Of a DNA stretch of 64,000 bases, positions 6,964 through 40,107 are shown piece by piece (positions within the stretch are counted from its first letter, which is position 1; the number at the start of each line of letters is the position of its first letter). Origin of the DNA: Volvox africanus (taxonomy: Eukaryota; Chlorophyta; Chlorophyceae; Chlamydomonadales; Volvocaceae); the NCBI GenBank assembly GCA_030268105.1, contig BSDZ01000024.1, positions 2,013,501 to 2,077,500 on the forward strand, in the 5' to 3' direction. The notes below the pieces were generated by a model, which made no database searches, had not been told where the DNA came from, and saw nothing but the letters and a program-made list of their open reading frames with translations. Made by a program: the position numbers and the translations under genes.

Positions 6964-9900
6964 TCAAGAGAGGTCAAACGAGCCCTGGCCTTCTCGGATG
7001 GCGTACATGAGGCGCGCCGCCATGACGGCCTTGCTGCTGTACGGCGGCAGTTTTATGTAGTTGGCGCACGTCATGACGCTGGGCAGGTCAGCGTCCGCTG
7101 CGCAGACCGCCGCAACCAAACTCGCATCCTGGAAGCTCCCCACCGGAGTGGGGCCGTTGCTGGGCCCCTCACCGCCACTGCGAATGGAAGTTTGGAATCA
7201 CGCAGAAACGGCCAGGGAGCCGAAGACCACCGGCACAGTTCGTCGGCATAGAGCGGGGCACCGAGAATGCTAGCTAGCTTCAGACAGACGGAAGCAAAGA
7301 CCCCCCAGGCAAATAAGCTTAGGAGCCTTGCTTGCGATGCGGTGGTTTGTTCACCTGTACAACACCATACTTGTCGAAGGAAGCGTCCAGGACGAATCTG
7401 CGTCATGAAAGCTGTGCTCCTCTTTCTCCCCTCTTTTCCTTCTCTCTGTTCCTTCCAGACGTTTTCCCTCTGCACTCTCTTACCTGGGATGCTTTCGAAC
7501 CACCGTCAATCGCGGCTGCAGCGCTGTGAGGCCCCCGGGCGGCAGACGCGGGCAGCCGGTGACGAAACGCAGGAAGGCCCGTTGGTCCGCGGCGTCCAGC
7601 TCCGACAGGATCTCCAACAGAAACCTTGCGACACGACGAGGGGGAAGGGCACAACCCAACATGTGAGATGTCCATGCGAAGGAAGGAAACGGACAAATGG
7701 GAGCGGTCGGTTCATGTCAACGACCAACGATCGGTTTGGACAGAGAAAGGGCGTCAGAAGACCGCCACCTCCCGCACAACACACCTGACTGGCGGGGAGT
7801 TAGCCGTGTAGCCGTGATCAAACTTGATGCCCTCCGCCAGCACCTGCAGCGTCCAGCGCTCCCCGCTGCCGCACAGCAACACCTCGATCTCGTCCTCGTG
7901 AAACAGAGACAGCATGCTGTGAGAAAATCACCACCGCCATCACCACCAGCAACAGAGGGAGTAGACTGTAAGGTTTTCCACATCATATCAGATATCCGCA
8001 TTCGAAGCGCCTAACCAGATCCTCGTAGCGACTTCTGTACTCGCTAATATCACTCAGGATTTATTCCCGCGGTTTCGGCGCGGAAAGACTGAAGGGGCTG
8101 TGGGAAAAAGGAACCTGATGTGCGGCGAACGGTGACCTGACGGACTGCACAAATGAGAGCTGAGATCAAATGGAGCGCACGCATTCGACCCCTACCCCAT
8201 TGGGTGAGAAGGGATCACGTACCTCAGGTTAAAGACCTCATTGAAGCCCTCTCGAAATGCCGTCATCTGTGCCGTGATGCCGGAGCCCATACTTGCATCC
8301 ACCACTGCCTCCATGTATTCCTCTAGCTGCTCCGCAGTCTCCACCACCATGTCGGCACCACCGGGACGCAACAGGTAGTCCGGCTGGCCTGTCGTACAGA
8401 AATGGTAAGGGAGAATGAAAACGGCAGCGACACGGCGTGGCGACAGTTATGCAGTTTTTCCCTCTCTTTTCCTTTTCCTTAACGTAATATACTGTTCGCC
8501 TTCTTGTGATATATTCAGGTCTACTGTTTGGTTCCAAAATGAAGACTTCCTTACCCGGTAATTTTCTTAACAAGGGTGGGATCTGCCTCGAATACCTTTC
8601 GGTTCATTCCACGACTCTTACCCCCACGCCATCCTAGCTGCCCCAAAAGCATTACCGCCGTTATCGGTAACAAGAAAGGAGAAGAAAAACAGTTACTTTC
8701 TGTTATTCCACTCACCTGGCAAGACGAAGGTGATGCACAGTTCCTCAACCGCCACTCCGTCGATATGCAGCTTCCCGCTACTCCCCCCCGCCCGGTAGGC
8801 TGCCAACGCCGAGTGGAGCTTCGCCAGAGTGGTACCTAGGCCGGGGTCGAAGCGGGCGATGTCCCACACGTCCAGCGGGCTGCCCAGGGCTGTGCAGTCG
8901 TCAGCCGGCAAGATGGATTTTGCACGTCGAGTAGCGGGGGTACACGGGTGGGGTTACAAGGGTGGTGTGGCGGGTTTGAAAGGGGGAGGGGAATAACCGG
9001 ACGAGACGAAGGGAGGGAACCAAAGCCAGGGTGCAACATACACAGAGCGAGAAAGATTGACGAGGGACGGAGGCGGACCGGTGACGGGGGGGGAGAAATG
9101 GTGTATGTCCGAAAGAAACGAAGTCCAAAGAGTAATCGGTGGTCAATAACCAGATCAGGAACAGAGAGAGGCCCACGAGAACATGCCTACACATGCGTCA
9201 TCCTTGTACCTGTGACGTCTTAAGATCAATTGAACCATTCACTTCCTCCTCCTCTCTTCTCCTGTCCTCCTCTGTCTGCGTCTTTCCTTGCCCTTCCCCT
9301 ACCACAAACGTTTTCCTCATCCTAATCAGTCTCCTTTTCCAAAAGCGCTCGCTCACCAGCAGCGTAGAAAACATGGCTCAGCGGGAGGTCCAGCAGCCGG
9401 TTGTCCTGCAGAGCCTTCGCCAGTGTACGACCCAGCAGCCGGAAGTGCTCTACAACCTTCAAACAGGCCGCGTTACTGCGGGCCGCTGGTGGCAACGGCC
9501 GCGGGAACAGCCCCCAAGGCGCGTTCACGTACTCGCATTCCTCATGGGTGGCTGCCTCACCGCGGCGCGACGGCACCGACAAGCCCGCTCCTGCCACCGC
9601 TGACAGCGCCGCCGACGAAGCGACGGGTCCAGAGAGGCGCTGCTGCAGTGCTGACGACGCCGGTTGAAGCGGCAGCGCCAGCGCTGCCGCGTTCCCGTCG
9701 ACCTCCATCCTATCCGGTGACGCCAGTGCAGATACGCCGCCACTCTCTCGCCCTTCTTCCTCCGCCTGGGGCTCGTCACTCTCCTCCTCCTTCATCGCCT
9801 TGACCTCATTGCCGCCCCCTGGCGATGACTCCTCCCGCTGCGGCTGCTGCTGCTCCTGCTGGGTGTCATCCTGCTCTTCGTGACGCCACATGCCCAGATC

Positions 9901-12900
9901 CTTGCGCTGCAGCTCGTGTGAAAGCAGCGTGTAGAACTCCAGGGTGGGGCCCAGGCCGGTGCCCACCTCGCCAAAATATTCGAGCTCCAGTACGGCACGG
10001 CTGCGGGCGTACAGCTCCATCACCTTGGCGGCTGATTCCAGGATACGCTTGCGGGATACACGTACCTAAGGAGCAGGGAGAGGAGTAGGGTACGGAGCAG
10101 GGTACGAAACAGGATAAGGAGCAGGATAAGGAGCAGGGAGAGTTGGATGATAAAGAGATAAGAGACAGCGCCGAACAAGTTACAAGTTCAAGCCATTTTG
10201 AACCAAGGCTTGATGCTGCAAATATTACAGTAGCTATTCAAGGTAATCACGATATTGTAGTGCTAGACGGCAAGGTAAAAAGCTTTGCTGAAAAGCTTAC
10301 GGCAGAAAATACGGTAAAAGCCATTCAGGGAGTTAAAGCGATAGTAAATGAAATTAAGGTTGATCCTTTGCACTATAAGAAAACCGACTCTGAAATCGCA
10401 ACAGATACAATTAACGCCTTAAAATCAAGTGTATGGGTGCCGGCCCAAAAAAATAAAAACCTTAGTAAAAGACGCGGTGGTGACTTTGTCCGGTGAAGTT
10501 GAATGGCAATATGAAAAAACTGCTGCTTTTACAGCTGTTAAAAATCTATGGGGAATAAAATCAATAAATAATGAAATAACGGTCAAGCCTTCTATTACCA
10601 TTAATGAAGATAAAATAAGACAGGAAATTACTAAAGAGTTTGAAAGGCATGCTCGCCTTGATGTTTCACGTATTAAAATAAAAATACAGGGGAAGAAAAT
10701 CACCGTTGAAGGGGAGGTATCTAATTTCGATGAAATGGATATAGCCGAAGATGCTGCATGGGCAATACCGGGTGTAGCAGAAGTCAAGAATGAGTTAGTA
10801 GCTGACTGAACCACCCTCAGCTTAGAGCTGCGGGTGGTTCAGTTTTGCTACGAACTGTACGCCACGACATGCAGATGTCAGTAGGGTAAAATGAAAAACT
10901 CCATCCTGCCCTGCCTGTGATCCCCCGCCCCCCTAATCTCGCTTCACCCCGACTTACTTTTTGACGCTGCAGACGACCGACCCGCAGCTCTCTCCCGTCA
11001 CGGTCCGCTGCCCCGTGCCCTGTCCCCGGTCCCCCTCCCGCCTCCGCCGTGTGCAGCTGCTGCATATGCTGCAGAGCGCGACCCAAACCGAAGGCGGTGC
11101 AATAGAAGTAGCGCTTGCGGATCTCGAACGGGAACAGGAAGCGGCACGGCGCGGCCAGGGCGGCGCACCAGGAGGGCATGCCGCCGCCGCAGATGGACAG
11201 CACGTCCTGTGGGTTTAGTGCGGGGTCAGAAGGCGGGGGATGGGGCAACAGTACGACACAATGAGCACAATGCAGCCAAGACCCTCATCAGGTAAAATTA
11301 CGGGAAGGAGAAGATGGCGAAGCATGGGAGGAGAGATGACGCGGCGGAGGCCAGGAGGAGAGGAGCGGAGGTGCGATGGGCGGACAGCGAAGGGGGATAA
11401 GGGAAAACGCATGAACGCATCCCTCCTAGTATCCACCTTGACGCAGACAACAGCCGCCTCACAGACCCATCTGTTTACTGCACATGTTGTTAAGCCATGG
11501 ATACTAGCGCCAAGTTCAGTTGGACAATCCTGCTAAGAGGGAAAAAGGCAGCACCTAAATGGTTGGTAAGACCGTTGACGCCCGGTTATCGCAGCAAGCA
11601 GGTCCGCGCCACTGCCTCAATAACAAACGAAGAACACAGATGATGAATGAATCAGTGATATGACCAGACGTGCAGCATGCCGCACACTCATGGACTCCCA
11701 ACATCACCACCACCCCACCCCCACCCCACTTAGCACCCACCTTAAGCTGCTGACCTAGCTTGGAGGAGAGCTTTGCCGACACGAACTCGTCGCGGGGCAC
11801 ATGGCGAACGGCCTCCAGCGGCCCGGCGCTATCCTCCTCCGGTCCGCCGGCACCCACCGCGTCCAGCTCTGCACATGCACGTGGCCCCAACCGATTAACC
11901 GCCTCCAGCAGGGCCAGGAGGGCTAATACCTCCCGACAGGTGGGCGTGCAGGCGAGGTCTGACGGCACCCGGGGCGCCAGGAGCTCCCGCAGCGGGGTGT
12001 TACCCCAGCGACCCAGGCTGCCCGCAGTGGACGAAGACAAAAATGCGGAGGCCAAAGAGGACGTACGGCCGCCGCCGGCAACGCCGGATACAGATGCAAT
12101 CTCCGTTGGCGTGTCGGTGGCGCTGACGGGGCGGTAGTACAGCGTGTGAATTTCGTCCCATAAGCGCCGGCCGCGCCGTTGGCCTTGCTCCTCCTCCCCG
12201 TCTTCCTCTCCTTCCGCTGCCGCTTGCTGTTGTGTATTCACCTGCTGAATGGCTTGAAACACGGTGGAGACAGGTGGCAGCGCCAGGCGCTCATCGCTAC
12301 TCGTGCAGAACACAAGCTTCGCAGCCGCGGCTTCATGGGCGGCAGAACGCCCACCGGCAGCTGCGGCGCCCGTGCCAGCTCCAGCAGCTCCGGCGGCGGC
12401 AGCGGATGCCGCCGCCGCGACAGTGGCGGCGGAACGGCCGCCCCAGGCTCCGCCTGGCCGGCCAGGTGTGACGGCGGCCGCGGCCGCCGCCGCTGCCGTG
12501 GCTGCTGCTGCGGCGGCCGCGCCGCTGCCTGCTTGTGGCGCCATGGCATTGCCTGACGACGGCTGCTGAGCTGCTGAGCGGTCCTGATCCACGTGCAAAT
12601 CGTGGACATGCAGATTGCCGATGTCGCCGTCAACTACAGTAGCACAGACAAGCACTAATGTTACGTGAGCACCGACAATGCATGAAGAGGTAATAGAGAC
12701 ATGACATGCAAACCTCGTTTCCTTGCAGACAAGGATTTCTTGCAACACGGCAACACGCTGCGTAGCGCACCATCATCTCCATCCATGGCATCCTCGTCGA
12801 AGTCCTCATCGTCTTCGTCGAACATGGCGTCGCCACCGCCTCCGGCATCATCCATATCTGCATCGCCGTCGCCCTCATCCATGTCGTCATCGTCAACCTC

Positions 12901-15418: not shown

Positions 15419-18400
15419 CGGCGGAGAGGGCTTACGATGCTAGTCGAGGTCTCATACGGTTACGACTAATGCAATAACAGCAGCCGTGGCGGCTCGCCTC
15501 TTTCACGAGCTCTCAGTCAGAATTATTTAGTTTCCACCAAACACCTTGATCCTGGAAATGCCCTTCTCTTAGATTATTCATTGCTGTTGACAACACCGGG
15601 CGTACGGAGTGTCCAGGTCCCGCACTTTCTGCGCCTGCTTCCCGATGCAGGCAGACAGGTCCACGATGTTGGCCGCGGTTTACCCACCCCGGCGCGATTC
15701 CTCCACCGTTGACGCAGTTGTGCCACCGCGCGCCGCCACTGCATTGGGCGATGCGGACAGCGCCGGCGGCGGGCTGCTCACCCCTACCACCGGCGTCGCG
15801 GGCGTCGATGATGCAATCTGCTCGATAGCGTGCGCGACGCCCTCCTTCAGGAAGACGTGCTTGAAGACATCTGGCAGCTGAGCCATCAGCACCTCGCAGC
15901 AGTGAAGCGCCGCCGCCAGGGTGGCAGCGTCCCGCACCGCCAGCAGCGCCGCCAGAAAGGCCGCCAGGGGCAGATTCCGCAGTGCCTCACGCAGCTGTGC
16001 AGCGGGACAGGCCACGAGAATCTGGAGGAGGACTCGCAGCGCCCGTGCGCGCACCTGACAGCATGAGAGAGGTAGCAGGGCAGCGGGAGTGTGTTTCTGC
16101 AAGGCCTTCATGCAAGCAAGATGGGAGAGAGTGACGATACTGAATGCCAGAAGTACAGATATACCGCCTACCTGCGCCGTCATGCATGTTACCTCCTTTC
16201 CTACGACCTACCATGTCTTTGCGTATCTTTCCGGCCAGCTAATTTGCACAGCGAGCGCCCGTGCGCACCCTTCCAACAGGACACATCGTATCACCGGACG
16301 AATACCGCCACTGCCAGTCTGAACGTATCCGGGAAAGTAGTGAAGCCCTTCAGTTACCCAGCCTCTATCCACCTTCGACCCGAAAGCCTCATCCCCCACC
16401 TCAGAGATGACGGTCGCGCTGTAGCTGCTAAGCACGAGGGGCAGGATGTCGTTACATAGCTGCGCAGTGACGGACGGATTTGCCGACAGGTAGGCGAGCA
16501 GCTCCCCACCGCGCGCCGCCAGTGCCGCGGGTCCCTGCCGGCCACCGCCACCCAGCAACGCCCCAGCCACCGCAACCCCCTCTCCAGACTGCGTCTGAGC
16601 CTGCGGAAGCTCCACTGCTGCTCCAGATGCCATCAGCGTTTGGGAGTCTGGAACCGGCGGCAGAAGCTCCGACAGCAGCCCTAGCACCTCGTGCATCTGA
16701 TCGGGAGTGCGCAGCAATGCAGCGCCGCCGCCGCCGGCGTTCGGCCCCGTCATGAGGAGTGGCGAGGTGGCCAGCAGCGTTCGAGCGATGGAGAGGGCGC
16801 CGGTGCCGAGCAGGGTGACGGCAACTGAGGCGGAGCTGGCGGCTGCGGTGGCCAGCAGCTTTAAAAGCCCGTAGTAAGTGGAGAGGCTCAGCTGGCTGGT
16901 CATGGCCCCAGTCTCGCTCAATCCAATCTGTGCCACCGTGAGAGCACAGGACCGGCAGCGGCACCACCGAATGAACGAAGGGGTGGGTGCATGGGTATTT
17001 ATACGGCAAGGGAACAGGTTCTGACAGCTTTGTTGCTGCTCTACGCTGCTAAGGAAGCCCTCAAATGCTGGGTGAGCAGCAGTAGCCGCTGAGATACGGG
17101 GAGTATAGATACAGCAGTTATGGATGAAAGACTGAATGGGAACCCTCCGCCCCAAGCCGCCACACGGCCCTGCCTTTTCCGAGGTGTCCCCGCCTCACCA
17201 GCTGCAAAGCCTGCGCCACCAGGCCGCCAGAGGTCAGCGCCTCAAGCAGAGTCGGCTGGCCAGCAGACGCCTCGGCGATGTACGACAGCGACACACAGGC
17301 ATTGTCGACCACCTTAGCGTCCTGTAGTAAGAGAGACGATGGGGTGATTCAAATATACTTCTGGATGATTAGTGGTAATTGCATGGGCAATGTTTTGCCA
17401 AAACCGGTAGAACCACGATAAGTAACGCTAAGTACTACATACCCCCAGGGAAAGTAGCAGCTGACCATGTTCATATGTTGAAAGATTGTGAACAGCGGCG
17501 GGGATGAAGCCCAAAGGCGTCGGGTGCCCTGATCTCTCCTAAACCAACCCGGGCAGCCCCGGCACAAGGAGGTTACTGGGTTTCCCAACTTGGTTCGCCC
17601 CCTTGTCTGTCGTCAGGACTGCTTAGCGGCTGAGGTTCACCACTTTGCTGTTATCTTCTTTCTTAGCAGGGCGGGGCGATTTGCATTTCCAACTTCCCTC
17701 GAGGGCCTTCACCCGACTAGTAATCATATATACATACTCCCGCCCCCTGACTGACCGAGTAGTGCAAAAGGCCCGTGAGTATGGGAATCGCCTCCTTCAC
17801 GGCCGCCTGGGCTGTAGAGCTGGAGGCGGCGGACGGTGACATCGCCAGAGAGCGGCAAATATTGGCCGCAGTGGCAGTGGCTGTGCGCTGCACACCAGTT
17901 GGGAAGAAATCCAAATAGGACAGCACCTGCGGAGTTCACGAGGGAGCCAGCCAGAGACGGTCAGCCAGAGACAGGCAGGCGCATGTAGCAGATAATTGAC
18001 GCGAAACGACGGACTGATCGCGTCCCCACACCGGCCAGGCAGCCATACAGGGAAGTCAAATAGTACGGCTGGTGTGGAAAAAGGATATGAGCAGGACCGG
18101 GCGAGTGGCGTCAAATTAAAACTGGTGAAGTCAGATTCAAATGAAGGGGCCCGTTTGATGTTCCGCAAACCACCATGGTACAGCGGATCACCCCTACATG
18201 TATTTGGACTCACGGGATCGCGAGTATGACGCAAACCCCACAAACCCTAAACCCCCCACTAAACCCAACCCAGACCGAATCGAGGGGGAGCCAGACACAC
18301 AGCCACTCATCTACGAAATGTTCCGACATGGCGGGGTCGGGAATTGAAGTTCCGGATCTGGTTATGATGGGGTCACGGGGATATCGTTGTGGGGCCCCAA

Positions 18401-20969
18401 AGTGGGGCTTGCTCACCGCTAGCAGACCTCCATTTTGCAGAAGTGCCGTCGCGTGCTCGTGAGATAACTTCTCCAGGGCCTGAGGGAGAACCCAGGAGCA
18501 GTGCACCGCACCGCGCCGCAGGGGAACAAGCGAGACCGAGAGAGAGGGGAGAGACGGGGAAAAGAGAGATATGCACGCATGTGTCGAATGAGGCAAGGAC
18601 ATGACACGGGACAAAGGGGCGGAAGCTCACAGAGTTTGATCGCATGTGCACCACCCTTACCCTTTTTCTCGCGTCATTATTCTGTACGAGTATTTACATA
18701 CTGTTAGGGTCATCATCTTATGGCTTATCGGACGACGTCAACAGCACCAATGATGTACACCTGTTATGCACGCGACGCCTGAGGATCCCAACGGACGGTT
18801 TGTTCCTGTGGCCTGAGGGGTGCAGCCTACGTATGCTGTAAGTGTAAACAGACACGTTCGTTCGTGCTGTACCACTGTCCAGTAAATGCATATTTATGCA
18901 ACGTGTCCCACCACCCCCACCTGCAGCGACTGCTCTGCCAGGTCGATGTACTCAATGGTGAGCAGGCGTGCACAAAACGCCGGTACGGCGCCGTGCCGCA
19001 CGATGGCTCCGCACGATTGCGGCAGCACATCCGCCAGGAAGGTGAGGGCGCGGGCAGCCATCAGCATGATGTCCGGGTTCTGTTCCGAGTTCAACAACTG
19101 GATCTGCGGGGTGCAGGGGAAGATCACGTGTTGCAACAAGTTGCAACGAGAGGGGACATCCAAGTTAATGATGACGAAACAGCTAACCAGAGCTTAACCG
19201 CCCCGCTCACAGCTCCCTCCCCAACCATAGCCCGTAAGTCTGCGCTGCTTTGTCCCTGCGGACTGCCTCCTCCATCCTCCTCGTTCAGACAACGATACTA
19301 GTACTCCGTACACACAACTGTTCTCCAACGTGATTTTGGGTTTTCCCTCTTTCTTTCTCCCCTCCCCGCTGTCCGAGCCGGCCTTGTGGTTGACGTATTT
19401 TAAGCTTTTGTCCTCTGGAGCCCCTTCCCTGTGCGAAGCAGGACCTATTGCCTTTGGATCTACGGTTCCTGCTCACACAGCGGCCGGGCAATCTCTACAT
19501 AGCTTCATGGGCACCTTGCTGAGTCCACCCAGCAGCGGTGGACAGCACCCCGAGCAGAAGCCCGTTCTGGGTGTGCCGGACCTCACCAGCAGTGGCACCA
19601 TGCTCTCCGTGGGGAAGGCCGCCAGGTTGTCCTCCGACGAAATCGAGAGCAGCTCGTTTAGTTCCGAGAGGGAGGACAGCTGCGCGCCCTCGTCCTCCGT
19701 CTGTCGAAGGCCCTGCATGATGGCCTGCGGGACACCCGTCCCCGTGCATCCGGGACAAAGGTGCCGAAGCAGGGAACGCGTGCGCTCAGGGAAACTTGCA
19801 AAGCAAAACAACTGAACGGCTAATACGAAATGCGCAGTGGATAAGTGAGGAGGGAGTAAGGGCGGGTCGACAAGGAGGTTTAGGCGACGCACTTTCTGGG
19901 TAACAGTGTATGATGCTCATCCCCAACTCCGCTCCGTCCTCACCTTCATCCTGCTGCCCGATACGCCCCCCATAGGCATCATGTCGTCAAATCCGGCCCC
20001 TAGCTTGCGTAGTAAGCCTTGGAGGGCGCTGCGTGGCCGGACGGGAAAGGACGGATGGAAGCGCGACGCTAAACCGAGGCGTAGCTCTGGGGATATTATT
20101 CCATGCAGCACATGCTAGGGGTATCATCGCTGGGGCTTGGGAGTCCCCGCCCCGTCCCACTCCGCCCCGTTGGCTGTCAAACCATATGTGACCGATTGCC
20201 AGCGTACCTGCTCCCTACCTGCCCACGTAAGGAAATGCGATCCCGAAACGCCCGCGCGGCCGCGTATCGGCACACTTGGGCACAATCCAATGCTAGCGTA
20301 CCTGCCCGCGCCAGAAAAGTTCCGACCGAAGACCTCCGCTAGGTCCTGCATCCGCAGATGAGGCACTCGTGATTGGACACACCCGCCGCGCGTAACAAGT
20401 TGACCGCAGTCAGCGAATGTGAGACACACCTTCTCATCATCCATTCCCTGACCACGACCCTGTCGATTCGCCATCTCTCGTAGCTGGGAAGGCGTCAGTC
20501 GGCGCGCTCCTGAGCTTGCCTTCTCCGCTTCAGCCGGTGCTGATGCTAGTGCTGGTGCTGCTGGAGCTGGCGCAGGCTGGGAAATCGGTGGCGCGGCTTG
20601 AGGCAATGCGGCTTCGGTCTCCTCCTTCAGCTGTTGCCGCTCCTCGGCCTCAGTAGAAGGATCGCGTGCCTTTGCCCTATTCCGCTTAGTCCTACCGGCA
20701 GTTGTCGCGGGAGCTTGCGCTGTGGCAGCGGCTGCCCGCCTAGAACGGAGCCGAGTTACTGGGCCGCCGCTGGGAGAATTGGAACGCTCTATTTCCCGCG
20801 CTGATGCTGATTGTTGTGTGTTTCCGGAACCGGCAACCTCGGATGCCTCGTGATTTGGTGCAGCCGGGCTAGCCTTGGAAACGCGCCGAGTTTTGCGGGA
20901 GGTCTGCTGAGTGCCGCTTGGAGGAGCTTCTTCGCGTTCCTTCCGCTTGGAGGAGCGCCTAGTTTCCAT
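6964..20969 (-). CDS. UPL3: UPL3-type HECT E3 ubiquitin-protein ligase (22 exons, 2203 aa)
   Basis: Exons: 20969-20430, 20345-20302, 20028-19944, 19724-19587, 19103-18921, 18479-18417, 17926-17756, 17321-17199, 16927-16400, 16054-15688, 15373-15108, 14648-14468, 14218-13425, 13221-12771, 12633-11741, 11206-10958, 10065-9357, 8889-8716, 8388-8223, 7916-7785, 7624-7484, 7177-6964. All phases agree and the sum is exactly 2204 codons. The product transfers ubiquitin from E2 to substrates through a thioester. The first 180 residues are basic (RKRK-type runs, likely nuclear). Armadillo repeats follow (about 220-750, with [10 protein letters not shown] and [11 protein letters not shown]), then an acidic Asp/Glu stretch (about 1162-1311). 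The HECT domain runs from about 1693 to the end with [13 protein letters not shown], a Gln/Glu-rich N-lobe insert, [12 protein letters not shown] and catalytic Cys2170 in [11 protein letters not shown]. Arabidopsis UPL3/KAKTUS is the close relative by domain order. Start: first in-frame ATG. The intron 10066-10957 contains a foreign gene. Confidence 0.95.
10066..10142. repeat. Purine-rich GGAGCAGGATAA imperfect repeat
   Basis: Imperfect copies of a 10-12 base purine unit (GGAGCAGGGTAC / GGAGCAGGATAA) fill the space between the UPL3 intron border and the BON gene. The composition is host-like. The sequence AAGGAG at 10128-10133 sits about 10 bases before the TTG that opens the BON frame and could mimic a Shine-Dalgarno site, but it belongs to the repeat. 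The BON frame is open through the whole repeat. Confidence 0.7.
10143..10809 (+). pseudogene. Bacterial-type triple BON-domain protein inside a UPL3 intron (frameshifted)
   Basis: Two overlapping frames, 10143-about 10455 and about 10440-10809, join into one protein of about 222 residues if a single-base slip in an A7 run near 10446-10453 is allowed. It has three BON (OsmY-type) domains: the first ends [12 protein letters not shown], the second holds [14 protein letters not shown], and the third holds [13 protein letters not shown] and [13 protein letters not shown] proteins bind membranes or phospholipids, usually in the periplasm of Gram-negative bacteria; no signal peptide is visible here. 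The DNA is AT-rich (AAA and ATA codons), intronless and opposite in orientation to UPL3, unlike every neighbouring exon. It starts at TTG 10143 or was joined to host repeat at its 5' end, and is followed by an intrinsic-terminator hairpin. The best reading is a recent insertion from a bacterium, possibly an endosymbiont. Contamination or misassembly is the alternative. Confidence 0.9.
10806..10848 (+). terminator. Rho-independent terminator hairpin after BON gene
   Basis: An inverted repeat begins CTGAACCACC at the BON stop codon and closes GGGTGGTTCAG. It gives a 17-bp stem with one mismatch and a 3-base TAG loop, followed directly by TTTTGCT. This is the standard form of a bacterial intrinsic terminator and has no evident role in an algal intron. 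Confidence 0.85.
15381..15419. repeat. CAA/CAG trinucleotide repeat next to splice acceptor
   Basis: (CAA)4(CAG)n run in the UPL3 intron between exons 15688-16054 and 15108-15373. Read on the minus strand it is a (CTG)n(TTG)n tract that serves as the pyrimidine-containing tract just before the acceptor TTTCAG. Confidence 0.85.
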
Positions 20970-22254
20970 GACGCACCTCACCGAAGGGGCGAGGCGCAAC
21001 GCTCACCGACATAAGGAAAGAAGGCAAGTTCCCAAACAAGGTCACCTTGCCACAGGCTCCAGACAAGAACGGAAAAGAGAAATTTTTTACAAAACAGCCT
21101 CACAACATTGGTGGATCATGCATTAGGAAGCCTTCAAGTTGCTTACTTCATAGGTACGGCTTTTGGGCCCCTCTGTTGGGAGTTTAGAGAGCACCCCCAA
21201 ATTGCCAAAATCCCTATCCATATGCTCAGTCTTTAAATTTTGTCCTTTAATACGCGGATTATACCGACAGACCGCGTCGCAGTCAACCACCACGATAGAT
21301 AGCACACCCCTTGCGACAGCGCGAATGGCAAGTCTTGTGGTTTTTAGCATTATAAGTAAAATGTTACGTTAAGGAGGAACTACAGGTCAAAAATTGCTTA
21401 GGAGATTCCGGACTGGCGTTGGGCACACCCAGCCTTGAAGCGTTTCACCGGCACACTGCCGGCGCCTATTCAATCATTTAAGGCAAGTCTTAGTTGTCGA
21501 TTAATTTATTGGTGCTTGTCGGCTGTGGAGTGTTCCGATAGGGTTACGGGACAGCTGCCTTGACTGGCTTCTTTCGCCCAACAGCTCGGCCAAGTTTACA
21601 TTCTGTAACCGTTTTGCGACGTAAATTCCATGAAGCCGTTTCATGTTTATCATATCGTGCCAAAGGATAGTCATTTTTGGGCCAGCGGGACGTTATGACG
21701 ACCGGTTCGTTGCGGCGACCCAACTGCACTGTATGCGCCGCACGGCGGATCTTGCCTTCAATTTTTACGAACATTTTGTGAGGCCAAGGTTGTGCAAAAT
21801 TCATGCTGGAGCCATGTGTCTTGCACCCTAAGCGCTGTCGACATCCTTTTGAGCCTTGGCTCGCTGGTTTAATACAAAGGGTTCACCTTGGACTTTAGGG
21901 ACCCAAGGAGCAACAAAGATGTATAATTTTCCGCAGCCTTACCAAAGCCTTCTGCACATCTCCCAAAATATGCCCTATCAGCTGTTCCATTCGCGCTGCT
22001 TTGCGTTATACAGCTTTCATTACCCAGCTGACACTATCACCTTATTTATGTTTATTTTTGTATGCAGAGATTTCCTCCTACAAGTCATAAATAGGTGTCT
22101 GACATCGTGGTGTACATATCAGCGGACGTGTTAGAACCCCTCCGGCCACCGCGTCAAGGTCTTTAGACGCTCCCGGCTCCCTCCCTTTAGCTTCATCCCC
22201 TGGTGCCAACCACACCTTGTTCCTCGTTATCACTGCCAGCAAGCAGCTGTCGAT
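20970..22254. other. Divergent intergenic region UPL3 / DMP
   Basis: Shared 5' flank of the UPL3 gene (-) and the DMP gene (+). The 86-codon ORF 21804-21544 and the 75-codon ORF 21350-21123 (both minus) have a basic, coding-like composition, the second starting with an amphipathic MLKTTRLAIRAVARG. Neither shows a domain I recognise, nor splice links. Confidence 0.4.
21544..21804 (-). CDS. Hypothetical basic ORF (86 aa)
   Basis: ATG-initiated frame of 86 codons, Lys/Arg-rich with a strongly basic C terminus (KLGRAVGRKKPVKAAVP). The composition suits a small nucleic-acid- or ribosome-binding protein, but I recognise no family. It lies on the same strand as UPL3, in its upstream region, and could be a chance ORF. 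No splice partner was found. Confidence 0.25.
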   Translation of the reverse strand: MNFAQPWPHKMFVKIEGKIRRAAHTVQLGRRNEPVVITSRWPKNDYPLARYDKHETASWNLRRKTVTECKLGRAVGRKKPVKAAVP

Positions 22255-23169
22255 ATGGACGCCATCACGAGGGTCTCCTATTACTTCCCAACGCACACGC
22301 TTACCATCTTCCAAATCTTGGCCAATCTGGTCATCAATGACTCATCCTACTGCCACGACCAAGAGCGGGCACTCGTCATCGCGATGCTGGTCCTCTTCGC
22401 CGTGGTCTGCTTCTTCGTTTCCTTTTCAGATACCTACACCGCCCTGGACGGCCAGAAATTCTGGGTCCTTATCATGCCGGTCTATGGACCCCTGTGCTTC
22501 TCCCTCCCCACTGAGGAAGACAAGGACCGCGTGTACGAGTACTACTACGCCAAGGGCCGTGATTTCGTACATGCCATCGTATCCACCGCGGTCTTCGTCC
22601 TCATCATGCTATTCACCAACCCCGTCTGCATGTGCATCTTCCCGTCCGGCACACGAGACGGCACCTCCCAGTTCGACGCTGCCATCGTCCGCACGGTGCC
22701 GGTCGTCGTGGCACTGATCGGCGGCATGATCATGATGTGTCTCGGCCCACCGCGCCAAATGATCGGCTTCCAGAATGTCCCGGAAAGTGTGCCAGCAGGG
22801 GACCGGCCTATGGCCTCCAACCCCGTATACGCGGGATCCCAGGGCGACTACCCGCCCACCATTCCCGAGGGTGAGGAGGATTTCGAGAGCGGTCCTGGAT
22901 CGGCGCCACACGGCGGCAGTGGTGGCGGCGGGTCGATGATGAAGAGTCAGGAGGGTCCCGGGGCCCTGACATCCAGCAAGAGCTTGTCCCGCAGTGGTGG
23001 GGGAGGTGATGGGAGTTTGGGAGCGCCGAGGGAGAGTTACGTCAGCAGCCAGTACCGTTTGTCGATGAACCCGGGGCGGCAGAGCCACCGGGCGATGGGG
23101 CCGTCTCCGTCACCCAAAAGCGGGGATTATGGGACCAGCGATGGCGGCTATAGCAACAATCCTATATAG
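22255..23169 (+). CDS. DMP (DUF679) family membrane protein, intronless, 304 aa
   Basis: The first 175 residues match the DMP fold of plants: TRVSYYFPTHTLTIFQILA, an Asn-Asp-Ser-Ser-Tyr-Cys segment, then hydrophobic spans at about 42-62, 72-90, 110-133 and 145-166, with DFVHAIVSTAVFVL and PPRQMIGFQNV as conserved blocks. DMPs are small four-span proteins of ER, vacuole or plasma membrane; Arabidopsis DMP8/9 act in gamete fusion, others in membrane remodelling during senescence. The C-terminal 125 residues are a Gly/Ser/Pro-rich cytosolic tail (GGSGGGGS, SRSGGGG) absent from typical plant DMPs. The start is the ATG that directly precedes the conserved domain. TGTAA at 24115-24119 is the first plausible poly(A) signal. 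The role in this alga is unknown. Confidence 0.9.
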   Translation: MDAITRVSYYFPTHTLTIFQILANLVINDSSYCHDQERALVIAMLVLFAVVCFFVSFSDTYTALDGQKFWVLIMPVYGPLCFSLPTEEDKDRVYEYYYAKGRDFVHAIVSTAVFVLIMLFTNPVCMCIFPSGTRDGTSQFDAAIVRTVPVVVALIGGMIMMCLGPPRQMIGFQNVPESVPAGDRPMASNPVYAGSQGDYPPTIPEGEEDFESGPGSAPHGGSGGGGSMMKSQEGPGALTSSKSLSRSGGGGDGSLGAPRESYVSSQYRLSMNPGRQSHRAMGPSPSPKSGDYGTSDGGYSNNPI

Positions 23170-25950
23170 CGGAGGGTTTCGACAGGAATGAGGATGATGA
23201 TGAATGAAACGCGCCGCAGGGAAAAAGGGTCAAGCGCTGGTGAAAGCATGTCAGTTCAGGGGTTGCTGTGCAACTGGAGGGAGGGATGAAGGAGGTGTGA
23301 GCATTGCATATAGCTTCATGGAGGCCGCCGCATGAAGCGCCACGACACTGGGAGGAGAGGGGCTGGATTAAGGAGCGGGTTGGTCGGTGTGCCTTGAGAG
23401 GAGGAAGTGTTGGAAGCGTGCGTTGCATTGACTGGATGCCTGTATAGAAACGGCCCCCCCTTGCTTTGTTTGGAGACCCCGGCGGTCCCACTCGAACGTG
23501 TTATTTTGCGCGCGATATGAATACTCTTTATCGAAGATTGATGGAAAGAGCCCATGCAGCCTGGGTGGTATTGCGGCGGCTTGCGATCTGGTATCCTGCA
23601 GCCCCGAGAGGCCCAATGGTCTTTATCCGTCAGGGGGGAAGGGGTAATGTGTATGTGTGTGTGTGTGTTTGGAGGGATTCAGAGGGATGTGTTGGACTTG
23701 GATCTAGAGGATGGGATATGTGTAGTCGAGGCGCGTGGAGCACGTGACGGACTGCGCAAGACGCACATTTTGTCGTCTGTGTTGGAACGTGCGATCTGCG
23801 CTGGACGCTCCTTATGGCTTCCCTCATGCCCTTCTCCTTGGCGCAAGAAGGATCGTTGTGTTGCTGTTGTATGGCTCTTATTCAGTGTGCGTATATGCCG
23901 AGGAGGGGAGGGCTTCTTATCAATCCGGAGAGTGCGCTGCAAATACAATCCTGCTCCCGTGCATGTGAAGTCATGGGGTTAGCCGCCGCATTTGATTAGT
24001 CATTAGCCTGATACCATTCTGGTGGCACATCCCGTATTACATCACTGGTTACAGATACCCTACGAGCGATCCTCTGGTATTTGGAGCTGTCTGAAATCGT
24101 TTGGCACCTCTCGCTGTAAAATGCTGATGAGGTGTAAGTTGCGTCCACGTGCGGACAGTACACGCCGTTTCACACCCGCTTATGATACCGCACCGCTCAT
24201 GTGTAGGTAGGTGTCCAGAGCATCTCATCTAACACAAGGAGGGGACCCTCCCCGGTCCTTGGAGGGCGCCACTGCCGCCAGGCAGCCAGGTACTCACCTA
24301 CATGCACCGAGGAGGTGATGCCCTAGGGACAGTGCGGAGGAGGTCCCGGCTTTGTTTATTCGGTGATGTGGAGGAGCTAATTTGCAATTTGATGCGCTCC
24401 TGGTCACTCCCTTGCGCCCTTTGTGGCATATGGTAAGTTGGTGACAGATTTCTCACATGTATGGGCATGTGGGAGGCATGTGGGAGGCATGTGGAAGGCG
24501 CTCACATGCGGCCCGTCCCCTCTCTCTTATGCTGGTTTTCCAGTACCTCATCATATTCCTCCATGTCACTTGGCAGCAGCAGCAACAACAAACGACTGTA
24601 CATGGCGTCGTGTGGAGGTAAACTTTTAGTCCCCTAATGATGGCAGTGAGTGGTGCCAAAAGACGGCGGGATGTGAGCGCTGGTGAACAACAACAACAAA
24701 AGTGAACTGATTTTTGTCTTCGCATGTGCGCTTGGCACTGTTAAACCGGGGCCATTTGGCCTTGTTGCTACATGGGCACCGTGGCAATGTGGGCATGTGA
24801 TTGGAAAGGGGCCGAGTTGGGGCCAAGCCTACGTCGGCAGTTTTTCCCTTGCGGATGTGTAAAGCCCCCTTCCCATCATCTCCGACGGACGGGTTCCGTT
24901 GTCTTTTTTCCTTCCAATCCACCACCGCCCCACCCGCCTGCTGCTGTCCCTAGCCGGCTGAGCTGCCCGCCAGAGAATGGAGGCAAATGTGAAGGGGAGC
25001 CGAGAGTGGGAAGGTATATACCGGTTTGTACAGATGTATGCATAACGACACAATGCGGTGGAGTCGAGGCAGAAGTTGTGGCGCGGCTGTCCCCAACGTT
25101 TCTTGGGTGGAACTTTCCCACCAACCCCTAAGACGGCAGAATGGTGATATGGTTTATTGGCCACCCCCCTTTGGCTGATGGATAATGCAGGACGTGTGAT
25201 TATAGCGGCTTATTGAGGGCTGATCGGGGGCAGAGTTTACTACTCCGTTGGTCCGCTACATTCTGCAAGACGGTGGTGGTGAGCACTGAACCCAACAACC
25301 CAATGTAAAAGGCGATTGGGTTAACGAATGGATAAGAGCGTCCCTCCCTCAGGAAGGGCAGGGAGAAGCAGGGGCCTCGTGGCTAGTGGGCTGTTGGTGC
25401 CCGAGCAATTTAACACTTACACAAAGACATGGGGCTGTAAACGCCCTTCCACAGGGGAGTTATTCCTCACCCCTAATCCTCAAATGGACAGAGAGAGAAA
25501 ATCACGGACAAATCTTGACAGATAGATAGACGGTCAAACAAAGCAGCGGTGGCAGTGCGGAATGCGGAATGTGGTGCATTGTACGATAGCTCCATATGAA
25601 CCTTAACACGTCGTACATCATTTATGACTGCGTTTTTGTGATTTATTGACAAATCGAGGAGAAGTAAACAGTGTAAAGGAGCCACCAGGCCCCCTCTGCC
25701 GGAGAGTTGGGAAGAGCAGCACTCAAAAAATAAGACGCCGCGGAAGACAACCTTGCAATCTGATACTGGATGAATGGCCCTCGTGTGTCGTGTCACGCCT
25801 CCTCATCACCGTACTACAACAAACATATTAGCAGCAACACAGCCCGACATGAACAATATCAACGTACAATGTCACCAATGTTGCCCTAGTCCTCAGCAGC
25901 ATCAAGAAGTTATTTACTTTAAATAACTTCCTAAATAACTTCCTTCCTGG
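23170..25950. other. Intergenic region (convergent 3' flanks of DMP and RING-CH genes)
   Basis: No convincing exon on either strand. It contains the DMP 3' flank, a (GT)n run at about 23648-23668, a TTACA at 25418-25422 suitable as poly(A) signal for the minus-strand RING-CH gene, and a perfect inverted repeat at about 25908-25931. Confidence 0.5.
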
Positions 25951-28900
25951 CTAGCTGCGGCGGCGGCCGCCACCGCCACGCGGGGCGCCCAGCGCCGCCC
26001 GTTGTCCCCGCTCGTGTGCATGGCGCTGGTGATTGCGTTGCTGGAAGTGCAGACCAGCCGCCAGTCGCTGCTGTTCCAACCGGCTCCGTGCGCGGTGGTC
26101 CGCGGCCGTCATCACTGAGCTGCGGCCGCGGTGTGTCCCAACGCCGGTCTGACTCTGCAGTCGCTGTCCGGCCACGTCGATGAGGGCATTATCCTGTGGA
26201 AACAACGTTGACGATAGCGTACTGACGCATTCCCAACGGTTTTGTGGATGCAATGCATAAGTGTACATGTTTGCATCTGTGAGTGAAACTTTGACTTTCA
26301 ACGACCAGTTTTGAGCTTCCGCTCACCGTTATGGCGTCAACCGTCAACTTCCCGTCAACCCCCAACTGCTCAACTCTGGACTTACGTACAGCTCACGCAC
26401 GCGGTGCTCCTGCTGCTCGTAGTGGCGGCGCCATTCGTGGTAGACCTCGTCATACGCAGCCCTACCCGGCATCATCGGCGGTAAATCCATAAACGCGGAT
26501 CGCTCCCCCCCGGACTCCCTGGACCGGCTCCCCTCCGTATCCAACGTAAGGCCCGTCACCTCAAAGCTCGTAAGCTGCATCGCGCAACCGTCCGGCCCCA
26601 TAAGGCCCACCCCACCATCTACCCCAGCTGCCGCAATGTCGTCCACCAAGAACCGGATACGTCGCAGCAGCTCTTTTGCATCCGGGAGTGGGAGGGGAGT
26701 GGGAGAGGAGTGCGAAAGGAGTGTGAAGGGGAGCGAGAAGTGCAAACACGGAGAAGCCGACGTCCAACGACTATAAACACGACACAGGCGGACGCGGGAG
26801 AGAGGGGGGAGGACGCCAACACACGAAGAACCGAAAGCTGTGGCTCCAGAACTTCGTTGTAATGTATCGACAAACAGCGGAGGGAGCGGGGTCTGATGAA
26901 GGGTGTGCGGAGATATAGTCCTCTACATGCATACACATACACACATGTACACAATCTATATACCACGTATGTCGTCCCTTCCGCAGCACTCACCCCCGGC
27001 CGCGAACCCCCCGCACGGCATGGACAGCTCCACCGCACCCCCAATGCAGAAGTACACGTGTGCCCCGGGGGGTAGCGGCTGCCGCAGGTCGTGGACCGGG
27101 GGGCAGGCGGCGAGGAGCATGGAGGGAACGGAGGGACTGCAGCTGATGGACTCAAGTACGGCACTGTGGGAGGGCCAGGGCGGAACCCCGCATCCACGTT
27201 TGCTAAAGCTCGCCCTGTGCCGCGTTTTAAATACACTCACGGGCTGTTCATGTCCATGTACGTGTGTCACACAGACTGAGGTGCGTGCGTAAGGATGATC
27301 CTCAAATGACAACAACAATAACAACAATAATTGCAGTACTGGTAATAATTATAATAATTCGACAAGAGTCAGAGGAAGATCATGGAAAAAGTCAAGTGAC
27401 AAGCAGACTAAACCATCCTCACCGATCGTACAACGTACGGCAATTTGGACATGCTATAGCCCAGCTGCTGTCCAGCCACCTTCGAAAGCAGCCCCTGTGG
27501 ATGTACCGCAGCCCACCAGAGCATGTTCGGCAGGGCATGGCCAGCTCATCCTCGGTGTCGTTGCCACCACCTTCATTGCCATCTGCGCAGGAAGCAGCGC
27601 CGGGGGCGGTACTTGCGACCACGCTACAGCTGCTCCCCCGCGGCCGCCCGCCTCCGCCATCTTCACTGCCGTTGACCGTTGCAGCATTTTTATGACAAGC
27701 CGCTCGGCCCTTCCCATAGCACAACCAGCACTCTGGTGTGCTACATTCCTCATCTTCTTCTTGCGCATCACTTTCCTCGCCGTCCCCGTACGCGGACCCC
27801 TCATCCTCATCGCCATCGCCATCTTTGGTGTGGTGTAAACCGCGAGAAGCCAAATCAGCAAATTCCGAAGGCTGGGGCTGCGGCGCCGTCACGGGCGTTG
27901 CCGTGGTGACAGTGGCGGCCGCGGCCGTGGTGGCGCCGCAGCCGCCATCGCCACAATGCTGCCGCTGTTTTCCTCGACCAGCATGGGAATACTGGCGCCG
28001 CACGTCCATATCCATTCTTGGAGGCCCCTCGCACTCATAGTCTTCTTCCGTCGAGTCACCGCCAGCGTTACCGCCATGGGGCGACGGCGCCAAACGCATA
28101 ACTTGTCCTTCTTCGCTATCACTCCAGACAGACATGGCCAGAATTGCAAAGGGGTTGACGGCCCCGCCTTCGTCATCATCTTCATCAAGGCCATCGTCCT
28201 TTACTTCTCTGCCCTCCTCCCACTCGTCTTGTTGCTGCTGATGCTCCGCGCCTTTCTCCTCCTGCTCCCTACCGTCATCGTACAGATGTTCTGTGTTCTG
28301 TACGTCCTGCGTAACCAAGTGGGTTGCACTTAGTTGTGTTGGGGGCTACACAAGGATCAAAACGGTGTCAAAAACTCCAGTTTCAGGTGTTTGTATTCCA
28401 TCAAGAACGTAATTATTGCGTCAAGCAAATGGATATCATGGTAGTTGCGTTGTGCAACATGAACCAATATCTCACAAATATCGCAACATATGGGGCGACG
28501 ACTATTACCAGTACTGGTACGTACCGATGGAGAATGGACATGACTGCTCATTATATACCTGCGTGTCATTGTCGCTCTCAGAACAGCTGAACCTCTGACC
28601 ACTGACGGCGTCATGAGCAACTCGGTTTAATATGTCAGCACTGATATCTGCAAAGAAATGCACCTCGATTTCAGGGGTTGTTCCGGCCACGCAGCCGCCC
28701 TGCTATGTCTCGACAATTCAGCTTCATATGTTGTTATCTCGTTAGCTGAGGGACCTACCATCTTCTATGTCTTGTTTAAGAACTCTCGCGGCAACGTTCC
28801 CTTCCGTGTCGTCCACATCTTCTGACTCCTCGCTCTCTATGTCCTCCTCGTCCTCCTCTGCTATATCAGATAAGCAATCGTATTCGCTATCATCGCTATC

Positions 28901-29370
28901 TGTCGCCAACGGGTCGTCAAGATCGAGAAGCGAAGACTTTGTTGCCTTTCGCAACTTCATACAAACGTGGTTGGGAGAACAGGGATCGTATTTAAGTAAC
29001 AAACCAATGCACTCTAATGAATTGGTGATAAATCGTTCTGAAGGCCAGTGTCCAGTAAAGCCGGATTGGCGTCGGAGCAGCTGCAATCACATACAGCGAT
29101 CTACTACTCACACTTCTGAATTTCTGTGATACGTTTTCAGCAATGTGTACGTTCTAAAGACATATTTCCAACGGCTATATGTACGGCGGCCCAAGGCATG
29201 ACAAACGCTGGCATGCAAAAGTTCATGCTCTGCGCCTCAAAACATGGGTGGTATCGAGAGAGAGCTAACCGTAGTAGCATGTTAAGCATAATATTTGGTA
29301 AATCACCTACATGATTGCAGGCGCATTGCCGAATTAACACTTTTCCGGCTTCGACATGCCAAGTGCACAT
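25951..29370 (-). CDS. RING-CH (RINGv) zinc-finger protein, probable membrane-type E3 ligase family, 675 aa
   Basis: Exons: 29370-29311, 29080-28759, 28647-28559, 28306-27423, 27136-26994, 26672-26386 and 26193-25951. Phases agree and the sum is 676 codons. An acidic, disordered N terminus (EEDEEDIESEESED) leads to a C4HC3 RING-CH motif at about 345-450. It starts CWLCYGKG, has a long Gly/Ser-rich insert, then PCRTCSGGLRYIHRGCFRRW and CPNCRTLYD. MARCH-type RING-CH domains recruit E2 enzymes. After the finger, a segment with HVYFCIGGAVELSMPCGG and a coiled, Arg-rich tail (RRIRFLVDDI; HEWRRHYEQQEHRVRELY) follow; I see no clear transmembrane pair. The first exon could instead be internal, since an acceptor-like AG precedes its ATG. 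The assignment of the last three exons rests on phase and position only. Confidence 0.78.
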
Positions 29371-29644
29371 CTGTAGTGCTGGTCCACACTCAGGATAGCC
29401 TCAGTCTGCAATGGGTAATTAAGGGGTATAAATGGAATTGACACTGCCATGCACAAATGTGATATATTTCATGCGGAGCCGAAATTTCGGCTCTGATTTC
29501 ACGAGTTCCTTGCTTCCTTGCCTTTGGCTACGTTTTGCTACATCTACCAGGCCCTGGTTAACTGTATGTATCTCAGCTTCTGACGTGAACCTATGGCTAC
29601 CGCCACCTATTGCTACATGGACTACTCTTCCTGCCACATCCGGG

Positions 29645-29960
29645 CGCCAACAAATCTTCCCTACCTCCTTCCTCAACGAACATGATAGCTCCAAGGTCCA
29701 GTCAACGTGGAGTAGAAGGACAATTCGTCATCACGTATGAGTATGCTTCGACGTAGCTGGACCGCGCTCTTGATGGAGAGTGTGTCGTCATACCGACGAA
29801 GTCTACCTACCAGTTCAGACACATGCCAGTACTTGGGTATGTGCTGAGAAGATTGCCACGTTGAATATATGTTCTTCGAGAACGGTATTCGTTCCGCTTG
29901 CTGACGCTGATGTTAAGGGAAGGCCGGCGAATGTGCCCCCAACAGCATTAAAGAGGCCCC
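29645..29960 (+). pseudogene. Inverted, degenerate MIPS 5' fragment
   Basis: The plus strand from CCAACAAATCTT onward aligns by eye with the start of the minus-strand MIPS genes: leader, exon 1 (ACGTATGAGTATGCTTCGAC, GACGAAGTCTACCTACCAGT), the exon-1 donor GGGTATG, and part of intron 1. It has many substitutions, small gaps and an in-frame TAG where the intact gene encodes VEYTDHH. It lies opposite in orientation to MIPS copy 1, about 1 kb beyond that gene's stop codon. It is an old partial duplicate, not a functional gene. Confidence 0.85.
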
Positions 29961-30669
29961 AGCTCTGAACAGGTTCGCCCAGAACCCAAAGAGCATTGTG
30001 TCTCATTATATCCGGAGATCTCTCAAATTACAGGATTAGAAATCACGTGATTACATCCAATTCAAATTATGAAAGTGACGCAGTATGTTACACATACACA
30101 TAACAAAATCTAAGTTATAGGTTAAGGGTTAACGTAATGTCGCCTCAAGTGCATCATCAGCACGGGCTAGGTAAGGTACCATGTAATTGGGGTGTGTGCG
30201 TATGTACCTGCTGGGTAACCTCTCATGCAACATGCTGAACTCGCTCCACTACTCAAAGCAGCTACCATACGCGTATGGCGTCGACTGGCAAGGCTATCAT
30301 TGATAAATAAAAGCAACCCAATCCTGGACACCCGCAAACCTATCTACGCCATAAGGCAACCCTTGCAATTCAACGGTATGGCGGAAGAAAGCCCCGATGA
30401 GTCACGCGGTGGTGCATGTTGCATAGAAGGGCGACATTGCCAACCTCGAAACAGCAACACCACTACACCGGCAAACTCCTTCGCACAGATGGAGCTCCTA
30501 ATAAATGGCCCCTAACATTCCCACAATCAGATGGACGGTGGGCCATTTCCGTCCATCTTCGAAACTGGAAAAACCCGGCCACAACAGAGCCTCTTTGAAA
30601 ACCACCCCGACCTCCCAACAACTTGCTGAACACCAAGTTGCCTCTCTAGATGCCGCAACCTGACGCCGG

Positions 30670-32654: not shown

Positions 32655-33224
32655 GATGTTGAGTGCAAGATTTGTTGGAGCTGCAGGAAGACAGTGGTGA
32701 GGTTGTTCGCAGGCTCGCTCGCTGGCACTACAGAAAAATACAAGAGCTTATAGAACCTTTGAATGCCCGTCGATGGCTGTGCTCTTTTCTTTTTGCAATA
32801 TAGGCCGAGTAAAAGTGTCGTAGTCCTTCTTCTGGGAACACGGAATCCTTGTTAAAATGAGTACATGTTCATATAGGAAAGTGTTTGTACTACCAACGTG
32901 AGTGATCATTGCTCCCTATTTCCCATGCTAGTCCAGAATCCACCGTCGTGCCTTCAAAGCTCTGCCGTCATCGCGATCACAAATCGTCAACACTTACGTG
33001 TGTATAACCCTACACAGTGTTTACAATTTGCCTCGTCGTAACACGTCGTGCAGTTCTTTAACACTGCGGGAGCGCGATAGGGTTGGTCAGCTTACCATCA
33101 CGCATGCAGTTGTTTTGTGTGTTGCATCATAGAATTGCGTGATTCGGCGATTAAATCTTCATAGCACCTGTGTAGCTCAGTCGGACCTCACGTTTGGGAA
33201 ACAGCCACGGTTCTTCCGTCGGTG
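32655..33224. promoter_or_regulatory. Divergent promoter region MIPS / CSL4
   Basis: 570 bases separate the ATG codons of the minus-strand MIPS gene and the plus-strand CSL4 gene, so both promoters and both 5' UTRs must fit here. The region is lower in GC than the flanking exons. I see no unambiguous TATA box. The same block is repeated in copy 2 (39265-39834) with a few substitutions. Confidence 0.6.
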
Positions 33225-36221: not shown

Positions 36222-36726
36222 ATATGGGCCCAGGTCGTCCTCATTGACCCCTTCCCGAGGGCTGCAAGAGTGGATGCCGGGAGCGCAGAAGTGTGTGTGT
36301 GTGTGTTTTGGTACTACTTTTAAAATGTGCCAAGAAGTTATGGGAAACGGTAAGACTCAAGTGATCGTTCTTGTAAAGGTTGTAATGGGCAGTCCCAGGA
36401 TCAACATGGTATCAGCAGCGTCAGAATGCCTGTCACCGGGGCCCAGAAGGCAAGATTACGCCGACGACAAGTACCTTAAATGCACGTGATAGCCATAATC
36501 TATAACATCATCATATGCCAAATCAAGAGACTCTGGCCATAGGACCTGGCAACGGGTAGGTGGCAAAACATGTAACTCAAATTAGAGCATTATAATCAGT
36601 ATCCATTCACACATTACCATTAATAAACATCGTAGTAAATCCTCTGGTACTTCGTCCTCCGTCATTTCCTTACAAGCAAGAAAAAAAAGATGACGTCGGT
36701 ACGGCACACAATTATGCGACTTTTCA
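36222..36726. other. CSL4 3' flank up to the duplication border
   Basis: Non-coding. Includes a short (GT)n run near 36292-36306, two TGTAA motifs, and AT-rich sequence ending at the left edge of duplication copy 2. Confidence 0.6.
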
Positions 36727-39834: not shown

Positions 39835-39894
39835 ATGGCAGTTACTGCAAGCACAACCACGCCAGTCTGCGTTGGTGACCGCCTCGGTGCATCC
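39835..39894 (+). pseudogene. Orphan CSL4 exon 1
   Basis: Exact copy of the 20-codon CSL4 first exon with its GTGAGT donor, carried by the duplication. The matching intron breaks off at 40107 and no CSL4 exons follow, so it cannot make CSL4. It could still be transcribed from the copied promoter and spliced into downstream sequence. Confidence 0.85.
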
Positions 39895-40107
39895 GTGAGT
39901 GGCGGAGGACTTTCCAGCTGAACATGATGCATCGTCGGGACAAAGACCCTCCGATCACGTCTTGGGACTAAGACAGGGAGTAGAGCTGAATCGTACAGCC
40001 CCACACGCATCCTTTCTCGCCGCTCCCCCGGCTATGCTCCTCTCCCCTTCTGGCCACTTTCTTGTGCCTAAAACACATAAGAGACGGTTCCTTTGAAGTC
40101 ACCCGTG

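Follow-up and report, generated by a model that had tools for sequence, protein, structure and literature searches.

A broken fragment of a Megaera BON-domain gene in a UPL3 intron of Volvox africanus, and Megaera-like pieces elsewhere in the genome

We find that an intron of a UPL3/TRIP12-type HECT gene of Volvox africanus contains a 613-bp fragment of a BON-domain gene of Candidatus Megaera origin, with a broken reading frame, and that further Megaera-like pieces are scattered over the assembled genome, some of them joined into patchworks of short pieces. Candidatus Megaera belongs to the Rickettsiales, is a relative of Rickettsia, and lives inside algal and protist cells. We consider it likely that the fragment in the intron is dead, that it is one of many pieces that entered the chromosomes as filler during end joining, and that it is spliced out without yielding a product. 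With somewhat less assurance, we favor a broader reading in which a Rickettsiales symbiont's genome is present in the nucleus in shredded form, as thousands of Megaera shards of about 100 bp at thousands of sites, some built into multi-kilobase patchworks and some amplified into a tandem array; symbiont lysis would then have repeatedly supplied new nuclear and intronic DNA to an alga that does not feed on bacteria.

The BON fragment and its host intron

The fragment lies on contig C24 (2,253,411 bases). All coordinates without a contig name refer to the window, by which we mean the whole 64-kb stretch of DNA that was analyzed, located at 2,013,501-2,077,500 of this contig. The features around the fragment are as follows.

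9322..10065, minus strand: open frame holding the UPL3 exon downstream of the intron (open-frame list, TRIP12 match)
10066..10957, minus strand: intron of the UPL3/TRIP12-type HECT gene, with the insert; phase 0, GTAAGT to TAG (sequence and exon alignment to TRIP12)
10067..10138, no strand: tandem repeat with a 12-bp unit (6 copies) bordering the insert on its left, 56% G+C (Tandem Repeats Finder)
10141..10192, no strand: 52 bp between repeat and fragment, 40% G+C, without Megaera match
10193..10805, plus strand: fragment of the Megaera BON-domain gene, 5' end absent, frame broken (DNA alignment, Pfam BON, tree)
10447..10453, plus strand: A-run, seven As against six in both Megaera copies, a frameshift (alignments)
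10805..10843, plus strand: palindrome followed by a T-run, terminator-like (folding, Megaera plasmid match)

An earlier note on this DNA had described an AT-rich stretch lodged between two phased UPL3 splice sites, and both points hold. The G+C content of the insert stretch is 38%, versus 61-62% in the adjoining kilobases. Across the GTAAGT...TAG intron, the exons join in frame, and the joined peptide (RLQRQK/VRVSRK, with the slash at the junction) aligns without a gap to two TRIP12 chains from solved structures; UFD4, likewise from solved structures, matches the joined exons over the same range as TRIP12. The downstream frame matches TRIP12 and gives a weak HECT match, under the Pfam cut-off, and the upstream UPL3 frame at 16208-17191 has no match among solved structures at E 0.01. 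In the assembly sequence, the insert is embedded between these exons; given this arrangement, the UPL3 transcript would be expected to lose it through splicing, and we would expect no function for it. A search of the window against Rfam returned nothing at gathering scores.

The Megaera-like part comprises about 204 of the 220 codons of the bacterial gene. The three BON domains, the lack of introns, and the orientation antisense to UPL3 are all as described earlier; the open frame of about 222 codons is not, nor is the insert a gene. In alignments to the Megaera copies, the insert lacks the initial 44 bases of the bacterial frame and another three bases near 10369, and the A-run shifts the frame. 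The open-frame list contains two overlapping frames (10089-10496, with one Pfam BON match, and 10423-10809, with two). With no bacterial start and a broken frame, a functional BON/OsmY gene was rejected. An error in the homopolymer at the A-run is less likely if the assembly is the Illumina-corrected one discussed below. To the left of the fragment, the 12-bp tandem repeat is probably host DNA, and the 52 bp at 10141-10192 have no source among Megaera or plasmid sequences; the sole plasmid match in that search is weak (E 0.03) and falls on the 12-bp repeat, not on these bases.

The bacterial origin and Rickettsiales donor that had been proposed are borne out by several comparisons. At the DNA level, the insert is 86.9% identical to a BON-domain gene carried by CP113872.1, a plasmid of the Euplotes symbiont Candidatus Megaera polyxenophila, and 89.9% identical to L030, a contig of the metagenome-assembled genome (MAG) bin-4287. 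Because the match to CP113872.1 is reported with an E-value of 0 and stands alone at the DNA level in 72,556 plasmid records, a chance match is excluded; at the protein level, the second-best plasmid reaches only 43%. A tree of BON homologues, a check suggested in the earlier note, was built from 69 proteins (65 of 120 listed homologues, with 1,081 found, plus four added) and places the insert in a 19-row clade (support 100/99) with the Megaera plasmid protein, the MAG protein, and unnamed metagenome proteins; its placement inside that clade is poorly supported (86/12). By DNA identity, plasmid search, and tree, the sequence is closest to an intracellular bacterium and not to eukaryotes. A native algal BON gene is ruled out by the tree, and a phage collection contained no match to the insert.

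The same comparisons bear on age. Between the insert and the MAG, dS is 0.40, dN is 0.039, and dN/dS is 0.097, with 40 of the 60 differences at third codon positions, and the bacterial pairs L030-L009 and L030-L031 give dN/dS of 0.106 and 0.095. Since the ratio for the insert equals that between bacterial copies, most of the differences would have arisen while the gene worked in a bacterium, and the transfer would be recent relative to the divergence of the donors, as had been suggested before. In a two-phase model, neutral change since insertion is estimated at 0-2%, with upper limits of 2.5-4.2% that depend on the dN/dS assumed for the donor. Under this model, the donor is a Megaera that these collections lack, and on that scale the insertion is young.

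The hairpin previously noted behind the frame folds strongly (-39.4 kcal/mol, z -7.8). The Megaera plasmid AP017965.1 has 29 of 30 bases of the palindrome, located two bases past a transposase gene; no further plasmid matches with E up to 1, viral contigs scanned twice did not contain the palindrome, and neither CP113872.1 nor the MAG carries it behind its BON gene. Judging from these matches, the hairpin probably came with Megaera DNA, either because it flanked the gene in the donor or because it is a separate, second piece.

Megaera-like pieces in the window and across the genome

Within the window there is a second insert, made up of three pieces.

17349..17398, minus strand: piece 1, 50 bases, 92% to MAG contig C33
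17393..17444, plus strand: piece 2, 52 bases, 90% to MAG contig C171
17446..17479, plus strand: piece 3, 97% over 34 bases, transposase of Megaera plasmid AP017965.1

Pieces 1 and 2 share 6 bases, and the G+C content at 17346-17444 is 39%, versus 63% and 57% alongside. The open frames, together with what we take to be the UPL3 armadillo repeats, place 17349-17479 between two UPL3 exons, and thus probably in another UPL3 intron. The search of the window against the MAG covered 60 of the 64 kb (all but 40001-44000) and gave no match in 20001-40000 or 44001-64000; in those two intervals, the genome of an unrelated Rhodothermia, used as a control, gave 0 and 1 matches. That one control match, at 48510-48589, is weak (74%, E 2.9e-6). 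Elsewhere in the window, two identical 362-aa frames lie 6.6 kb apart (30670-31758 and 37280-38368); they resemble inositol-phosphate synthase, and represent either a recent tandem duplication or a collapsed or expanded stretch of the assembly. A carrier protein encoded in the window shares 94% identity with V. africanus, 90% with V. reticuliferus, and 73% with V. carteri, whose gene model may be faulty; V. carteri was accordingly rejected as the host.

At a genome-wide scale, the transfer proposed earlier stands, and its description as a single event proves too narrow, as many other Megaera-like pieces are present. The assembly searched comprises 140,993,249 bases in 126 contigs. Besides the window itself, the 730-bp insert region has matches of 86-96% identity in 8 further places, distributed over seven other contigs (each of the 9 candidates was scored; a tenth row of the search was the palindrome against itself). 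From the MAG, of about 1.7 Mb, we sampled the ends or wholes of 20 contigs, three of which served as queries (20, 18.6, and 20 kb; 58.6 kb in total) and gave at least 49, 42, and 43 matches, with the best 40 of 52, 40 of 81, and 40 of 56 candidates scored, respectively. Of the 42 rows for the 18.6-kb query, 18 were dropped because they fell wholly within query positions 2038-2159, a repeated stretch. At least 116 matches on 33 contigs were retained, with a median length of 95 bp (range 40-3,997 bp), and in the pooled set they form 95 sites separated by more than 20 kb, or 98 if clustered per query. Extrapolation to 1.7 Mb gives about 3,400 pieces, 2,800 sites, and 0.65 Mb, figures that are biased low by the limit on scored candidates and, resting on few queries, rough. 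The finding of two sites in the 60 searched kb of the window agrees with thousands genome-wide. The repeated stretch that was set aside (L053 2038-2159, MAG contig C15) matches 18 host places, many of them on host contig C45, at 73-88%, and has no Rfam match.

The density estimate omits a query containing a BON gene, for which 26 of 42 rows (best 40 of 67 candidates scored) lie in the tandem array on C32 described below. The short, fully scored query finds about 11 places per kb, versus at least 1.2-2.5 rows per kb for the long ones, and the plasmid gene may be over-represented among the pieces. As controls, a 20-kb stretch of phage T4 yielded not a single candidate against the assembly, and a 3-kb host stretch without an insert gave no match against plasmids. 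With 14.3 kb of a more distant Rickettsiales MAG as query, 11 matches were obtained: ten have 70-85% identity, and one, 39 bp long, has 97%. Three of the 11 fall where the BON insert also matches; by these matches, a further donor besides Megaera is possible.

The pieces do not appear to be of one age. When other pieces are aligned to annotated plasmid genes, 165 of the 320 differences in the 19 alignments fall at third positions, a weaker bias than in the BON insert, and L011, L012, and L014 show no third-position excess; with the bias this uneven, the ages of the pieces probably vary, and not all are young. Among individual loci, C100 2389631-2403896 holds a collinear series of Megaera pieces that spans 14 kb, with 91-96% identity, and C36 346737-355537 holds a 4.0-kb piece at 87%; both are larger inserts, which were perhaps split later. 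At C22 586202-591756 (L011, L012), two Megaera-like copies lie in opposite orientation, 5 kb apart, at about 75% to the plasmid, probably an old, duplicated insert.

Several fragments from different source positions can lie side by side at one locus, as in the three pieces at 17349-17479 and, most extensively, in L022, a 3,091-bp locus on contig C8 with a mean G+C content of 34% (25-43% in 150-bp steps). L022 contains at least 24 pieces, each 45-138 bp long, which together account for 1,814 bases, come from both strands, and derive for the most part from different MAG contigs (24 of 36 rows, the other 12 covering the same stretches, with the best 40 of 93 MAG candidates scored); one of the 24 matches the plasmid, and one best matches the more distant Rickettsiales MAG. 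At 9 of its 23 junctions, neighboring pieces meet with an overlap of 0-6 bp or a 1-bp gap, although such overlaps can partly arise by chance at alignment ends. Against plasmids, L022 matches 12 records, 11 of them from Megaera and the other a 48-bp Fusobacterium match. Seven of its pieces map to one IS256 copy, a recurrence that is expected if abundant DNA is sampled more often. At L014, four plasmid records, all Megaera, match in more than one piece, and L004, L008, and L019 have two pieces each.

A different form of repetition is seen at C32 343096-572943 (L023-L029), a tandem array with at least 26 copies of a piece of a second Megaera BON gene, spaced mostly 2.0-2.7 kb apart in its dense part. 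The array unit includes another two matches to Megaera, which touch at a single base; five plasmids from outside Megaera also match the transposase stretch of the unit, over 54-72 bp.

How the pieces may have entered

The sequence of events that we envisage would begin with the lysis of Megaera cells inside the alga. The symbiont's DNA, including its chromosome, plasmids, and insertion sequences, would be cut, mostly to lengths near 100 bp, with some longer fragments such as that of the BON gene; the pieces would reach the nucleus and there be joined to each other and to broken ends at double-strand breaks, by non-homologous or microhomology-mediated joining. Some patchworks would later have been duplicated or amplified together with host DNA.

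For the patchworks, the main rival is template switching, in which a repair polymerase copies short Megaera stretches in the nucleus with no ligation of pre-cut fragments. The pieces of L022, at 45-138 bp, on both strands, and from many sources, would also fit templated insertion; against copying, pieces of up to 3,997 bp and the 613-bp BON fragment exist. Neither observation is decisive, and overall we regard template switching as unlikely, though clearly less so than any of the remaining alternatives. Among these, capture of Megaera DNA by a transposable element that then spread it would account for the pieces that are copied (the C32 array and the two C22 copies), but different places carry different Megaera parts rather than one repeated cargo, which makes such an origin very improbable.

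Contamination of the assembly or the culture by Megaera reads deserves consideration, as Megaera lives in some volvocine strains (PMC4324946), yet we judge it just as improbable as spread by a transposable element. The pieces at the loci retrieved for closer study lie within contigs 0.96-7.8 Mb long; the pieces have for the most part a length of about 100 bp and vary in identity to the reference pieces from 70% to 100%, and one of them was amplified with host DNA in the C32 array. The possibility raised in the earlier note that the fragment occurs only on contaminant contigs therefore fits poorly, given also that the longest match to the three MAG chromosome pieces among scored candidates is at most 4.0 kb, with no symbiont contig covering them. 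A similar published assembly, that of the Thai V. africanus 1101-NZ-11, is described as based on PacBio reads with 166-fold Illumina correction and removal of bacterial-like contigs (PMC10291315); because that pipeline removed such contigs, the missing symbiont contig says nothing on a living symbiont. The least credible of the alternatives is that UPL3 harbors a nested BON gene that was gained by horizontal transfer and still functions. Its low dN/dS of 0.097 and the attached terminator-like hairpin might seem to speak for it, but the start is absent and the frame broken, the low ratio reflects the evolution of the gene in the bacterium prior to its transfer, and a bacterial hairpin would not serve an algal gene.

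If the pieces were indeed joined from the DNA of lysed symbionts, those of about 100 bp and the patchworks of more than 20 would reveal how the chromosomes of a host that is not phagotrophic acquire foreign DNA, and infection by Megaera would have left a fossil record in the chromosomes of the alga. The mechanism also becomes testable, as ligation of nuclease-cut fragments versus template-switch copying.

Relation to known systems

Rickettsial inserts in Volvox carteri have already been published. In strain EVE, PMC4324946 describes one 9-kb rickettsial region with four genes, found in a screen with E at most 1e-50, and related sequences detected by PCR in other V. carteri strains; a 2022 paper cites these inserts (PMC9098888). 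As here, the inserts are nuclear, come from a Rickettsiaceae donor of volvocine algae, and contain broken genes with no function assigned, and the ftsQ piece among them is only 75 bp long (PMC4324946). In contrast to that single 9-kb region, V. africanus holds many mostly short pieces, patchworks, and an intron insert. By the cut of the V. carteri screen, 33 of our 116 retained matches pass at 1e-50, with E-values that come from different programs and genomes; with only these passing, other algal genomes may hold similar scraps unnoticed. In the literature searched, which covered few subscription papers and preprints, we found no further account of rickettsial sequences in the nucleus of a Volvox; as far as that literature goes, what is new here is the number of the pieces, their shortness, their patchwork form, and their presence in another Volvox.

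As a protein family, the closest reference is BON/OsmY (Pfam PF04972, NCBIfam NF007858), with which the insert, a remnant, has three BON matches in common. On the NCBIfam OsmY equivalog model, the intact Megaera protein scores 67.4 bits and the insert half 42.9, both below the cut-off of 174.

The nuclear Wolbachia transfers (NUWTs) of filarial nematodes likewise derive from a Rickettsiales symbiont and lie as dead fragments at many places in the nuclear genome of the host, with 24-653 regions in the groups quoted and averages of 434 and 2,038 bp in two cases (PMC12693587). The Volvox pieces differ in their median match of 95 bp and about 2,800 extrapolated sites, and were found by DNA search and not through gene models.

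Complex organelle insertions (numts, nupts, and numins) offer a further parallel, in which blunt ends and microhomology of 1-7 bp mark end joining (PMC6215612); the mechanism that we propose for the Volvox pieces is the same as that argued for there. Numins likewise join several source fragments at one nuclear locus, the source being an organelle in their case and a bacterial symbiont in ours, and the maize example has four fragments in 3.6 kb (PMC6215612), compared with 24 pieces, mostly under 110 bp, in the 3.1 kb of L022.
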